Assembly: GCA_022842305.1 (NCBI GenBank)
Contig: JALHPY010000030.1
Coordinates: 1 to 35,202, forward strand
DNA from: Rubrivivax sp.
GTDB lineage: Bacteria; Pseudomonadota; Gammaproteobacteria; Burkholderiales; Burkholderiaceae_C
Direction: 5' to 3'
Length of the DNA: 35,202 nucleotides
A model generated the notes under the pieces. That model ran no database searches, had not been told where the DNA came from, and saw only the letters and a program-made list of their open reading frames with translations. Position numbers and translations under genes: made by a program. Positions 32,192 to 35,202 of the stretch are shown here, piece by piece. Positions within the stretch are counted from its first letter, which is position 1. Each line of letters begins with the position of its first letter.

Positions 32192-32420
32192 GCTGGCGCG
32201 CTCCAAGAGTCCCGGCACCCCTCGGGGCCCGCGGGCGCGGCTATCGCGGCGAACAAGCCCGAGACAGGCAGCCAGGTCCTGCCTTCGGTGAAGGGCCGCA
32301 GGGGCGCACGGCGTTCAGGGCGCCACCCGGTTCAGGACCGGCTGAGCGCGCGCGCGACCTCAGGCGCCAGCAGCGGCAGGTACGGAGTTAGGGATTCGGC
32401 TGGCGCAGGTGCTGTGTAGC
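32192..32420. other. Gap between cnoX-like gene and the sigma-54 activator gene
   Basis: GC-rich noncoding stretch of 229 bp. The only structure seen is a short hairpin CCGGT-TCAGG-ACCGG (32327-32341). No convincing sigma-70 or sigma-54 promoter could be found for the activator gene that follows. No copies of the GACCCTG operator motif found further downstream occur here. Confidence 0.5.
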
Positions 32421-33479
32421 ATGACCTTCCCCCTGTCGAAGGCGTGTTCCTTGACGAACTGGTCTGCGCTCAACTTGATCGGTCGGTCTCCGAGCTTCCA
32501 GCGCTCGCTGCACCTGCTCGAACAATGGGCCCAGGTGGATGCCACGGTGTTGCTGGTGGGCGAAACGGGCACGGGCAAGGAACTGGCCGCGCACGCCATC
32601 CACTACCTCAGCCCGCGCGGGCAAGGTCCCTTCGTGCCGGTGAACTGCGCCGCCTTGCCCGACAGCCTGCTCGAGGCCGAACTGTTCGGCCACGCCAAGG
32701 GCGCCTTCACCGATGCCCGTGTCGACCGCCCCGGCCTCATTGCGCAGGCCGACGGCGGCACCTTGTTCCTGGACGAGATCGACTCGCTCAGCCCACGGGC
32801 CCAGGCCGCCATCCTGCGTTTCATGCAGGACCACTGCTACCGGCCGCTGGGCGGCACGCGGCAAGAGCAGCCCAGTGTGCGGGTGGTCGCGGCCACCAAC
32901 GCCGACCTGGCCGCGTTGGTTGCCTGCGGGCGCTTCAGGCAGGACCTGCTGTACCGCATCAACCTGCTGAGCCTGCTGCTGCCGCCGCTGCGCGAACGCG
33001 CCGGCGACGCACTGCTGCTGGCCGAGGCTTTCGTGCAGCGGCTGGCGCGCCAGTACGGCGCCGGCCCGCGGCCGCTGTCGGCCAGCGGTCGGCGGCTGCT
33101 GGCCTTGCCTTTGCCCTGGCCGGGCAATGTGCGCGAGCTGGAACACTGCGTGCACCGCGGCTTTCTGCTGGCCCAGGGCGAATCGATTGACCTGGATCTG
33201 CAGGACCACTTTCCCGGCGCCGCCACCGAGTCCCCAGTGTCACCGCCGGGGCTGCAGCCACCGGCGATCGAAAGCCAAGGGCCGGCCCCGCCGCCGCCCA
33301 GCTACGACTGCGCACGGGCCGAGGTGTTGTGCGAGTTCGAACGCCGCTACCTCATCGACATGATGCAGCGCAGTGGCGGCAACCTGACCCTGGCCGCGCG
33401 CTGGGCAGGCAAGGAACGCAGCCACTTCGGCAAGCTGGTGCGCAAGCACGGCCTGCAGCGCACGGCCGACAGCCGCTGA
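32421..33479 (+). CDS. Sigma-54-dependent transcriptional activator without regulatory domain, GAFTDA variant
   Basis: A 352-residue AAA+ bacterial enhancer-binding protein that would remodel sigma-54 RNA polymerase. The AAA+ domain begins almost at the N-terminus (about residue 20), so there is no receiver, PAS or GAF sensor domain, as in PspF or HrpS. Motifs are Walker A GETGTGKE (47-54), the sigma-54-contact loop GAFTDA (94-99) instead of GAFTGA, Walker [11 protein letters not shown] (112-121), sensor I ATN (158-160), arginine fingers in [10 protein letters not shown] (171-180) and WPGNVREL (233-240). A proline-rich linker leads to a Fis-type helix-turn-helix (about 316-346). The ATG at 32421 is used; a GTG at 32409 is possible. 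It is followed by an operator array and a sigma-54 promoter, so it very likely controls the adjacent DUF4255 operon. Confidence 0.92.
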
Positions 33480-33506
33480 GCCCGGCTCGGGTGTCCGCCC
33501 ACGAAT

Positions 33507-33522
33507 GCTGCCGCGCGGCAGC
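33507..33522 (+). terminator. Perfect 16-bp palindrome after the activator gene
   Basis: GCTGCCGCGCGGCAGC is a perfect palindrome 28 bases past the activator stop. As RNA it folds into a 6-bp stem with a 4-base loop. No T-run follows, so termination is uncertain. Confidence 0.35.
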
Positions 33523-33600
33523 GCTGGCCCGCGCGGCTTCGACGTTCATCGCACACCTGCGCATCAGCCCCTGAGCCGGTGCGCATCTCGTGTCGCGCGC

Positions 33601-33662
33601 GGGTCGTGACGGACCCTGCACAGGGTCGCTGCAGACCCTGCGCAGGGTCGCGGCAGACCCTG
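33601..33662. repeat. 22-bp-periodic palindromic operator array (probable upstream activator sites)
   Basis: Two full palindromes, GACCCTGCACAGGGTC (33612-33627) and GACCCTGCGCAGGGTC (33634-33649, perfect), are flanked by in-phase half-sites: GGGTC at 33601-33605 on the left and GACCCTG at 33656-33662 on the right. Arms recur every 22 bp, about two helical turns, so all sites face the same side of the DNA. The array is about 110-175 bp upstream of a sigma-54 promoter and just downstream of an activator gene, the normal geometry for enhancer sites bound by a Fis-type helix-turn-helix protein. Besides this array, the promoter and the 33507-33522 palindrome, nothing else was seen in the 332-bp gap 33480-33811. 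Confidence 0.75.
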
Positions 33663-33760
33663 TGGACCGATCCGATCCGTGCGCTGCCACAGCCCCGAAT
33701 CGGCTCGAACAGGCCCGGCTGCCCGGCACAGGCGGGCATCGGCGCGCCGGCCCAGCACGC

Positions 33761-33775
33761 TGGCCCGACGCTTGC
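33761..33775 (+). promoter_or_regulatory. Sigma-54 (-24/-12) promoter of the DUF4255 operon
   Basis: TGGCCCGACGCTTGC matches the sigma-54 consensus TGGCACG-N4-TTGC at every defined position except one (A to C), with the invariant GG (33762-33763) and GC (33774-33775) correctly spaced. Transcription should begin near 33787, about 25 bases before the ATG at 33812. A degenerate copy of the same 17 bases at 33795-33811 lacks the GG and is probably inactive. Confidence 0.75.
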
Positions 33776-33811
33776 GTTGCAGTGGCGGTGCTGCCTGCCC
33801 CAACGCTTGCG

Positions 33812-34093
33812 ATGGACCACCCCTTCCCAGACGCCGACGTGCACGCGGTCCAGGAAGCGCTGTGCCGCTACCTGGCCCAGCGGCCTCAGGCGGCCGACAC
33901 GGCCAAAGGCATCCAGCGCTGGTGGCTGGCGCCCAGCTTCGGCGAAGTCGCGCTGGCCACCGTGCAGGTGGCGCTCGACCAGATGCTGGCCGAAGGCCTG
34001 ATCGAACGTCGCACCTCACCTTGGTCTGACGCCGTGTATGCACTGGCAGCAGGCCCCGCCAGCGCCACCAGGAGCGGCGAGACCGCGCACTGA
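33812..34093 (+). CDS. Small winged-helix-like protein, first gene of the putative eCIS operon
   Basis: A 93-residue protein, not assigned to a named family. The ATG at 33812 is 25 bases past the predicted sigma-54 start site; a longer frame to 33590 would cross both the promoter and the operator array and is rejected. Residues about 8-78 (ALCRYLAQRPQAADTAKGIQ, RWWLA, VQVALDQMLAEGLIERR, AVYALAAG) have the helix-helix-helix plus beta-wing outline of a winged helix, with the LVAEGLIERR-like recognition/wing pattern. No strong Shine-Dalgarno was seen. Only 4 bp separate it from the DUF4255 gene. It could be a local regulator or an assembly factor; both ideas are inference. Confidence 0.7.
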   Translation: MDHPFPDADVHAVQEALCRYLAQRPQAADTAKGIQRWWLAPSFGEVALATVQVALDQMLAEGLIERRTSPWSDAVYALAAGPASATRSGETAH

Positions 34094-34097
34094 CACG

Positions 34098-34700
34098 ATG
34101 GCCAGCACGCTTGCCCTTGCCGCTGTCGCCCGCACGCTGTTGCGGCTGATGGAAGAAGGCTGCCCGCGCAGCGAATTCACCGGCACACCCCGCTTCGTGC
34201 TGTACGCCGGCCAGGACTTCAGCGCCGACAGCGTCAGCGAAGGCATCTCGATCCTGCTGTGGCGCGTGACCGTCAACACCACGCAGCGCAACCAGCCGCA
34301 GCGGCGCGCCGCCGACGGCTCCTTGCGCCGGCCGCCGCTGCCCGTGGACCTGCAGCTGCTGATCACCCCCTGGGCCACCGAAGCCGAACGCCAGCTGCGC
34401 CTGCTGGGCTGGGTGATGCGTTTCATCGACGACCATGCGGTCTTGCCGGCCGAGCTGCTGAACCAGTCGTTGTCGCGCCGTGAGCGCCCGGCCTTCGACG
34501 CCGACGAGGCCGTGGAAGTGTTCTTCGAAGCCCCGGCATTGCCCGACTACCTGGGCCTGTGGGACAAGTTCCGCAACCGCTGGCAGACCTCGCTGACCTA
34601 CACCGCGCGCATGGTGCGGCTGGAGTCGGACATCACGGTCCAGGAGGCCGAACGCGTGCAGGTGCGGGATCTGCGTCTGGGCACCGCGCAGACGCCATGA
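34098..34700 (+). CDS. DUF4255 / Pvc16-family protein of an extracellular contractile injection system
   Basis: A 200-residue protein with the Pvc16 N-terminal (DUF4255) pattern: start ALAAVARTLLRLMEEGCP, then GISILLWRVTVNTTQRNQPQ, RRPPLPVDLQLLITPWA, AERQLRLLGWVMRFIDDHAV and LPAELLNQ. In Afp, PVC and related phage-tail-like particles this family caps the inner tube and sheath. The ATG at 34098 is chosen; an extension to 34038 would overlap the previous gene. The TGA stop overlaps the ATG of the next gene (ATGA at 34697-34700), indicating a tightly coupled operon. The family match is strong by eye; membership of a complete injection system depends on genes beyond the right edge. Confidence 0.87.
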   Translation: MASTLALAAVARTLLRLMEEGCPRSEFTGTPRFVLYAGQDFSADSVSEGISILLWRVTVNTTQRNQPQRRAADGSLRRPPLPVDLQLLITPWATEAERQLRLLGWVMRFIDDHAVLPAELLNQSLSRRERPAFDADEAVEVFFEAPALPDYLGLWDKFRNRWQTSLTYTARMVRLESDITVQEAERVQVRDLRLGTAQTP

Positions 34701-35202
34701 CGAGCTTGCTGCGTCCGGGCTTCGACACCGTGGTGCGCCGTGCGCTGCTGGGCGTGTTGTGCCGCGACGCCGTCGGCGGCCGCGTCGTCAACGAAGGCCT
34801 GCAACTCGAGCTGAGCGACGCGCTGCGCCCGGCGCTGCGCCAGCCCCTGCTGCGCAACGGCTCAGGGGTGTTCGTGCTGCACGGCCTGCCCGGCTGGCCG
34901 CGTTTCGGCGAAAACTTCAGCGGCTTCACGGGCATCGACAGCCCGCCCATCTCACCGGCGCTGAGCTCACCGCCCGCCGATGGCCGCTACACCTTGCACG
35001 CCGCCGACAGCCTGGGCCGTTATCTGCCCTGGCGTTGCCCGGTCGAGCTGCCCGGCGACGGCCTGCTGCCTTCGCCGCTGGAGCCGCTGTCGCCGGGCCC
35101 GCTGAGCGAGCCCGCGCTGCCGCTGTTTGCCGCGCCCAGCGCGCCGCTGCCGGCGGCACACGCCATCGTGCGCGCCGAGCTGCAGTCGCTGGCCACGGCC
35201 AC
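34697..35202 (+). CDS. Unknown protein of the putative eCIS operon (cut by right edge)
   Basis: Open frame from ATG 34697, overlapping the DUF4255 stop by the bases ATGA, to the window edge (168 complete codons, no stop). Not recognised. The visible part begins MTSLLRPGFDTVVRRALLGV, then has a beta-rich section with a possible carboxypeptidase-regulatory-like outline (VNEGLQLELSD, GVFVLHGLPGW, GRYTLHAADSLGRYLPW), then a proline/leucine-rich stretch. Genes next to DUF4255 in contractile injection loci often encode baseplate or spike-accessory proteins, so a structural role is possible, but nothing in the sequence settles it. Confidence 0.75.
   Translation, partial: MTSLLRPGFDTVVRRALLGVLCRDAVGGRVVNEGLQLELSDALRPALRQPLLRNGSGVFVLHGLPGWPRFGENFSGFTGIDSPPISPALSSPPADGRYTLHAADSLGRYLPWRCPVELPGDGLLPSPLEPLSPGPLSEPALPLFAAPSAPLPAAHAIVRAELQSLATA

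Follow-up and report, generated by a model that had tools for sequence, protein, structure and literature searches.

A putative dedicated sigma-54 switch at the left edge of an extracellular contractile injection system locus in Rubrivivax sp.

The right-hand end of a 35,202-nucleotide stretch of Rubrivivax sp. DNA (the window, which represents the entire contig JALHPY010000030.1, here C30; genomes, contigs and loci carry our working prefixes G, C and L) forms the left edge of a real extracellular contractile injection system (eCIS) locus of the Afp/PVC type, known here from its genes, and the eCIS operon is in all likelihood driven by a dedicated sigma-54 switch. The switch comprises a gene for a sigma-54 activator (bacterial enhancer-binding protein), an array of enhancer-like dyads and a -24/-12 promoter-like element, behind which the operon opens with a winged-helix gene. 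Sequence comparison establishes which parts are present, how they are ordered, that they are conserved and that the locus is an eCIS. The features of the window are as follows:

32421..33479, + strand: sigma-54 activator of clade A, 352 aa, no sensor domain (PF00158, E=1.6e-61; AAA_lid_14, 5.8e-15)
32700..32717, + strand: L1 loop codons of the activator, residues 94-99, GAFTDA in place of GAFTGA (alignment)
33601..33616, no strand assigned: enhancer-like dyad 1, GGGTC-N6-GACCC (exact match)
33623..33638, no strand assigned: enhancer-like dyad 2, GGGTC-N6-GACCC (exact match)
33645..33660, no strand assigned: enhancer-like dyad 3, GGGTC-N6-GACCC (exact match)
33761..33775, + strand: -24/-12 sigma-54 promoter-like element TGGCCC-N5-TTGC (TGGCCCGACGCTTGC), 9/10 scored positions (same placement in relatives)
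33812..34093, + strand: opening gene of the operon, encoding a winged-helix protein of 93 aa from an unnamed family with the signature A[AS]D[TS]xxGIxxWW (alignment, fold prediction)
34098..34700, + strand: Pvc16 N-terminal-domain (DUF4255) protein (PF14065, E=2.4e-31)
34697..35202, + strand: conserved eCIS gene, N-terminal part only, interrupted by the end of the contig and resuming on contig C282 (relatives)

The sigma-54 domain of the activator begins some 19 residues downstream of the ATG (residue 23 in the scanned form, which starts at an alternative GTG at 32409), and the open frame comprises 377 codons in total, leaving no room for a sensor domain. The first-pass annotation of this DNA had described the activator as sensorless, which holds for the window protein and does not extend to its relatives: some carry N-terminal extensions and one (L130, clade B) a Pfam receiver domain, so that the lack of an N-terminal domain was rejected as a rule for the clade. 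Walker motifs are visible in the AAA+ domain (PF00158), while the Fis-type DNA-binding end (HTH_8) scores 18.8 bits, below the cut-off of 22, and exceeds the cut-off in four of seven relatives scanned. The protein passes none of the displayed NCBIfam cut-offs (the best 25 of 27 families shown), and both NCBIfam PspF-type models match it far below cut-off. The activator does not have the canonical GAFTGA loop, reading GAFTDA; together with the winged-helix identity of the first operon gene, this loop is an addition to the first-pass annotation. The genome holds fourteen activator-like genes and two rpoN genes. The latter are found at L160 and L161 (contigs C8 and C57), with C57 carrying another sigma-54 activator approximately 2 kb from one of them.

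In a single FastTree tree of the eCIS activators and thirteen paralogues from the window genome, twenty-eight eCIS activators form clade A (support 0.955), with L087, which has GAFTGA, as sister (0.972), and six form clade B (0.987), which keeps the second glycine; none of the paralogues falls inside either clade. The second glycine of GAFTGA is replaced in all 27 clade-A proteins with an intact loop (22 D, 3 H, 1 N and 1 T), several of which are close relatives. Among thirty loci found with a clade-A profile, twenty-eight could be parsed and all of these have D, H, S or T, eight repeating proteins of the tree. This loop position also varies elsewhere in nature, differing in 2/13 of the paralogues, and an exclusive link between GAFTDA and clade A was rejected, as GAFTDA is also found in two weaker profile matches (L237 and L238, ~345 bits), and GAFTGA is retained by two strong ones (L230, 441 bits; L232, 412 bits). 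In clade B, both leader genes tested encode DUF3467 proteins, the operons of L059 (7106-7474) and L062 (5971-6366) opening with a DUF3467 gene and not a winged-helix gene. The eCIS activator of Tateyamaria (L105, 6271-7590) has lost the whole GAFTGA loop, and its gap retains the dyad GGGTC-N6-GACCC and has no sigma-54 site matching at least eight positions. Loss of the loop together with the promoter site is what the proposed switch predicts, in this single case, and the L105 activator may have switched to another sigma factor. The NtrC of Rhodobacter, which lacks GAFTGA, works with sigma-70.

A promoter match of the quality seen in the window is expected 0.43 times by chance over its length, and 33 of 100 shuffled sequences contained at least one; conservation was therefore used as evidence. 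The near-consensus -24/-12 promoter noted at first reading is thus at chance level when taken alone, and becomes convincing through its conservation among relatives. Ninety-five loci (80 picked by sheath and 15 by Pvc16) were considered, of which 71 had a Pvc16 match and at least 2 kb of upstream sequence and 24 were set aside. Sites matching at least 9/10 positions and lying 30-550 nt before Pvc16 occur in 22/28 activator-linked loci versus 10/43 other loci (Fisher p=7e-6), against a background rate of 0.037 per kb and strand. With four close relatives removed, the proportions are 21/25 and 10/43. Likewise, near the 46 winged-helix gene starts (48 found, three duplicates dropped and the window added), sites of at least 9/10 are present in 32 cases and of at least 8/10 in 41, compared with 0.98% and 8.8% of random stretches.

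The enhancer-like array of the first-pass annotation was recovered as three exact GGGTC-N6-GACCC dyads, evenly spaced at 22 and 22 bp. The 5.19-Mb assembly contains five exact sites, three of them in the window and the other two each single, while a reversed control pattern gave 33 sites. When one mismatch is allowed, four dyads are found in the window versus 1.83 in shuffled sequences, 13 of 100 of which reach four. This count is unremarkable, and the evidential weight therefore lies on the exact, evenly spaced cluster. The gaps of the clade-A loci contain fourteen exact dyads in 9/28 (half-site-reversed control, 0; 0.04 per shuffle), and no exact dyads were found in the clade-B gaps. Loci with exact dyads include those of named beta-, alpha- and gammaproteobacterial hosts, the classes being taken from the names. 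Furthermore, nine of the thirteen sites with the integration host factor (IHF) consensus in 675 kb lie within activator-Pvc16 gaps (0.44 expected), in 8/35 loci.

The tightly coupled operon with a DUF4255/Pvc16 protein, as first described, was confirmed, with the winged-helix gene (33812-34093) followed by the Pvc16 gene (34098-34700) and a cut gene at 34697 which overlaps the latter by 4 nt. No clear ribosome-binding site was seen by eye before the winged-helix gene. Members of the winged-helix family, which accompanies the clade-A activators, were found in 48 loci, and 38 sequences were aligned. The window protein reaches no curated Pfam or NCBIfam family, scoring 14-15 bits with MarR models (cut-offs 24.6-27), and weak MarR, GntR, Fur or other winged-helix matches occur in a few of the 38 aligned members. 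AlphaFold2 predicts a confident winged helix (mean predicted local distance difference test 86.3; predicted template modelling score 0.73), which stands alone in the model with no added ligand or metal domain. Fold matches are to generic winged helices, including Fur/Zur/PerR types and cullin domains; assignment of a function or named family on this basis was rejected, since such generic matches reflect fold and not function.

The cluster to which this operon belongs is truncated by the contig end at 35202. Contigs C30 and C282 share an 8-base end overlap, across which the cut gene of the window resumes in frame, and its homologue is contiguous in two relatives (G080 and G113). Family searches of the window genome, with all Pfam matches given here above cut-off, located the sheath (PF04984 and PF17482) and tube (PF06841) on C282; a second tube, a CIS_tube/LysM protein (PF19266, PF01476), GPD (PF05954) and OB-fold (PF04717) spike proteins, gp25 (PF04965) and baseplate J (PF04865) on C173; and a Tail_P2_I protein (PF09684) on C221. 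The NCBIfam models TIGR02243 (218.7 bits; cut-off 155.8) and TIGR02242 (69.3; cut-off 51.85) matched on C173 and C221, respectively. The end of C253 encodes the N-terminal part of a Pvc15-like gene, in which no Pfam family was matched. Components are named after those of the Pvc/Afp systems. The order C30, C282, C173, C221, C253 is collinear with G080 and G113, and in G113 the cluster goes on to a full AAA domain and an eCIS_core (DUF4157) protein (PF13699, 3.8e-33). The eCIS_core protein was not found in the Rubrivivax assembly by a search in which the control genomes gave no match either. The eCIS identity which the first-pass annotation had suggested from the Pvc16 gene is thus borne out by sheath, tube, LysM, spike, gp25, baseplate J and Tail_P2_I genes in the same assembly, and its expectation of sheath, tube, LysM/spike and baseplate genes to the right of the window is confirmed on the collinear contigs. 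As to the AAA+ ATPase that it also named, the full AAA domain is present in G113, and the N-terminal Pvc15-like part in the Rubrivivax assembly. A sheath and tube on contig C258 were set aside as phage-like. This second contractile tail cluster (L011, 580-2492, minus strand) has a 465-aa sheath together with a tube of phage type, is unlike the eCIS, and possibly represents a prophage or tailocin.

As judged from gene order, the activator-promoter arrangement is conserved with eCIS across other genera and phyla. When eCIS loci were picked by Pvc16, matches were found in 37/298 relatives at 38 places, twenty of which were fetched; in 11/20 the eCIS has an activator homologue upstream. A second set, picked by sheath alone (the best 80 of at least 579 matches), has a few organisms in common with the first. 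In this set an activator is present at 26/80 loci, always on the same strand and 2.5-3.6 kb before the sheath, and among the 64 loci with at least 3.6 kb of upstream sequence, 25 have a same-strand activator 2.6-3.6 kb before it. The hosts named for the listed loci include Leptothrix, Aquabacterium, Pseudorhodoferax, Lysobacter, Solimonas, Albimonas, Accumulibacter, Archangium and an acidobacterium.

The clade-A profile gave 33 matches of at least 391 bits in 32 of the 298 relatives, the next match being at 372 bits. Twenty-four of these are no more than 35 kb from an eCIS, and two are located at a type VI secretion system (T6SS). Ten of the 33 are directly before an eCIS of the window type, and another ten lie no more than 3 kb from an eCIS of a second architecture. 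There, sheath and tube genes come after the winged-helix gene, with Pvc16 and ATPase further along on contigs that extend far enough (winged-helix gene in 10/10; later Pvc16 match in six, ATPase match in eight; activator divergent in G093). Four are on the same contig as Pvc16 at a distance of 17-34 kb (G296, G157, G062 and G265:C32, with unrelated genes between in G265:C32), and the T6SS clusters of the last two (G275 and G265:C35) contain a fused VipA-VipB gene. At least five of the 33 are in the profile itself; with these five removed, 21/28 are linked to an injection system. The T6SS clusters of L209 (3865-19073) and L213 (15206-19854), in which the VipA/VipB sheath halves form one open frame, lie beside a clade-A activator and a winged-helix gene. 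In G296, an activator and winged-helix pair with its own sigma-54-like site is located at the remote end of the eCIS locus (L219, 7873-9333, minus strand), and the Pvc16 gene of this genome keeps a separate perfect 10/10 site (L049). An activator, a perfect sigma-54 site and a winged-helix gene also occur together in L203 (2780-6429), where the 20 kb read gave no match to an injection-system gene.

The genomes of 35/43 loci without an adjacent activator were also searched with the profile, three positive controls all being matched. Where the winged-helix gene lies beside Pvc16 and the activator is not adjacent, 5/5 have a match of at least 412 bits elsewhere in the genome, versus 2/30 where no winged-helix gene lies beside Pvc16 (L118 and L072; Fisher p=6e-5); a distant match of 388 bits for L082 was left uncounted. 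The distant activators of L118 and L072 adjoin a winged-helix gene, while no eCIS gene was found in the 8-20 kb read around each of the remaining five. The distant matches of L112 and L072 keep GAFTGA, and their clade membership is less sure. Of the eight loci remaining, seven were covered by the search of 298 relatives, with matches of at least 391 bits in G296, G265, G175, G157 and G028 and none in G235 and G132, and L075 fell outside the profile search.

The order and spacing of the parts fit the textbook sigma-54 layout in terms of consensus, enhancer distances and place of the start site. The activator would bind the three dyads, approximately 130-180 bp upstream of a predicted start site at ~33787, assemble on them as an AAA+ ring and loop onto the RNA polymerase-sigma-54 complex at 33761, where ATP use by the ring would open the promoter, resulting in joint transcription of the winged-helix gene, Pvc16 and the structural genes. 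In this scheme binding, looping and sigma-54 dependence are inferred from the sequence, and the feedback role discussed below is the least certain element. Gating of the activator from within its own polypeptide is improbable, as it has no sensor domain and carries GAFTDA. Control is most likely exerted through the amount of activator and a trans-acting partner, for which the winged-helix leader is the best candidate. That it acts in feedback is suggested by its position as the first gene behind the activator's own promoter, and is put forward at somewhat less than even confidence. Similar weight is given to a competing view of this step alone, whereby the leader would serve as a co-activator, or regulate other genes (effectors, lysis) at a second stage, and would not be a feedback brake. 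The lone winged helix of the model and the loci of G157 and G062, where the leader heads the eCIS while the activator sits elsewhere on the contig, fit such a role; its first place behind the activator's own promoter fits feedback, and the data do not separate the two.

Several observations weigh against a dedicated sigma-54 switch. Beyond the chance-level promoter match of the window, a sigma-54-like site is also present in 10 of the 43 loci without an adjacent activator, and no activator occurs in the stretch read at 39/64 eCIS loci. Nineteen of the 28 clade-A gaps are without an exact dyad, and the nine dyad-bearing gaps include two near-identical pairs (L055/L109 and L131/L144). No strict IHF site was seen by eye in the window, which lies outside the loci of the promoter comparison, and both dyad and IHF motifs were first spotted in some of the sequences counted, so that their enrichments are partly after the fact. 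Seven of the 33 clade-A activators (G223, G269, G025, G107, G175, G193 and G051) show no visible link to an injection system, G025 and G175 having a Pvc16 match on another contig. In the fragmented Rubrivivax assembly, neither the AAA domain of the Pvc15-like ATPase nor approximately 2.3 kb between C282 and C173 (a size judged from relatives) was found. The seven unlinked clade members, and the presence of fourteen activator-like and two rpoN genes in the genome, would suit an authentic enhancer-binding protein with its main targets elsewhere and the eCIS as one of many, but there are just two further exact dyads in the assembly, each single, and this alternative is considered unlikely. That the activator is an unrelated neighbour, adjacent through shared ancestry only, with the eCIS driven by another promoter, is highly improbable: the 39 loci indicate that an eCIS can do without an adjacent activator, but sigma-54 sites track the activator (22/28 versus 10/43), a winged-helix gene with no activator next to it predicts a distant one (5/5 versus 2/30), and exact dyads recur in beta-, alpha- and gammaproteobacterial loci.

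With the dedicated switch as the preferred explanation, a broader and rather tentative proposal, which may well not hold, is that the activator and winged-helix leader constitute a portable control cassette for contractile injection machines, serving two eCIS architectures and T6SS. The loop variant would free the ring from in-chain control and the winged-helix partner would decide, while clade B, with its canonical glycine and DUF3467 leader, would have been recruited separately to the same place, making all-or-none sigma-54 control a convergent way to govern the release of costly particles. Little is known of how eCIS production is turned on, and a tight switch of the sigma-54 kind, offering a defined DNA site along with a candidate partner, would allow induction of the nano-syringes to be tested directly in culturable environmental strains. 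It also suggests one regulatory theme shared by eCIS and T6SS.

Among the matches listed in the open-access part of PubMed Central (preprints and supplements being outside its scope), no description of a sigma-54-controlled eCIS was found, nor did word searches of the accessible text of PMC12210884, PMC11297309 and a sigma-54 regulon paper (PMC12316311) reveal one. The eCIS regulators named in the accessible part of a survey are of the GerE, BTAD and RfaH types, and the word sigma is absent from its main text as available (PMC8213781). According to the consulted portion of a review, eCIS clusters without conserved regulators have unclear regulation and elicitors, with no mention there of sigma, RpoN or enhancer (PMC10598620). 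The window genome shares with the known Afp/PVC eCIS the sheath, gp19 tube, CIS_tube and LysM, spike, gp25, baseplate J, Tail_P2_I and Pvc16 components, but differs in that its operon opens with a winged-helix gene behind a sigma-54-like promoter. VasH-type T6SS activators are the nearest precedent in the literature as far as it was available, since in T6SS under sigma-54 control (VasH, Sfa2, Sfa3) the activator gene likewise lies within the injection-system cluster (PMC9993120). The machine of the window is an eCIS and not a T6SS, whereas two T6SS clusters carry the clade-A activator with the winged-helix gene.

As in PspF and HrpS, the window activator consists of an AAA+ domain and a putative C-terminal DNA-binding part only, and solved PspF domains match it by sequence, but it differs from them in the GAFTDA loop and in having a winged-helix gene as operon leader. 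PspF is controlled in trans by PspA and HrpS by HrpV. An aspartate at the second glycine of GAFTGA has a counterpart in the G266D variant of NorR, which, as described in the accessible text, is no longer repressed at all by the GAF domain yet retains the ability to form open complexes (PMC2941729). Because this variant still forms open complexes, activity is compatible with D in the loop, and the comparison suggests that the clade-A ring may be free of in-chain control; NorR G266D is a laboratory mutant of a sensor-bearing protein, whereas the replaced glycine is the natural state of most of clade A. The parts of the switch are of known kinds. What appears to be new is their combination, the occurrence of the loop variant as a trait of a clade, and the family of winged-helix leaders.

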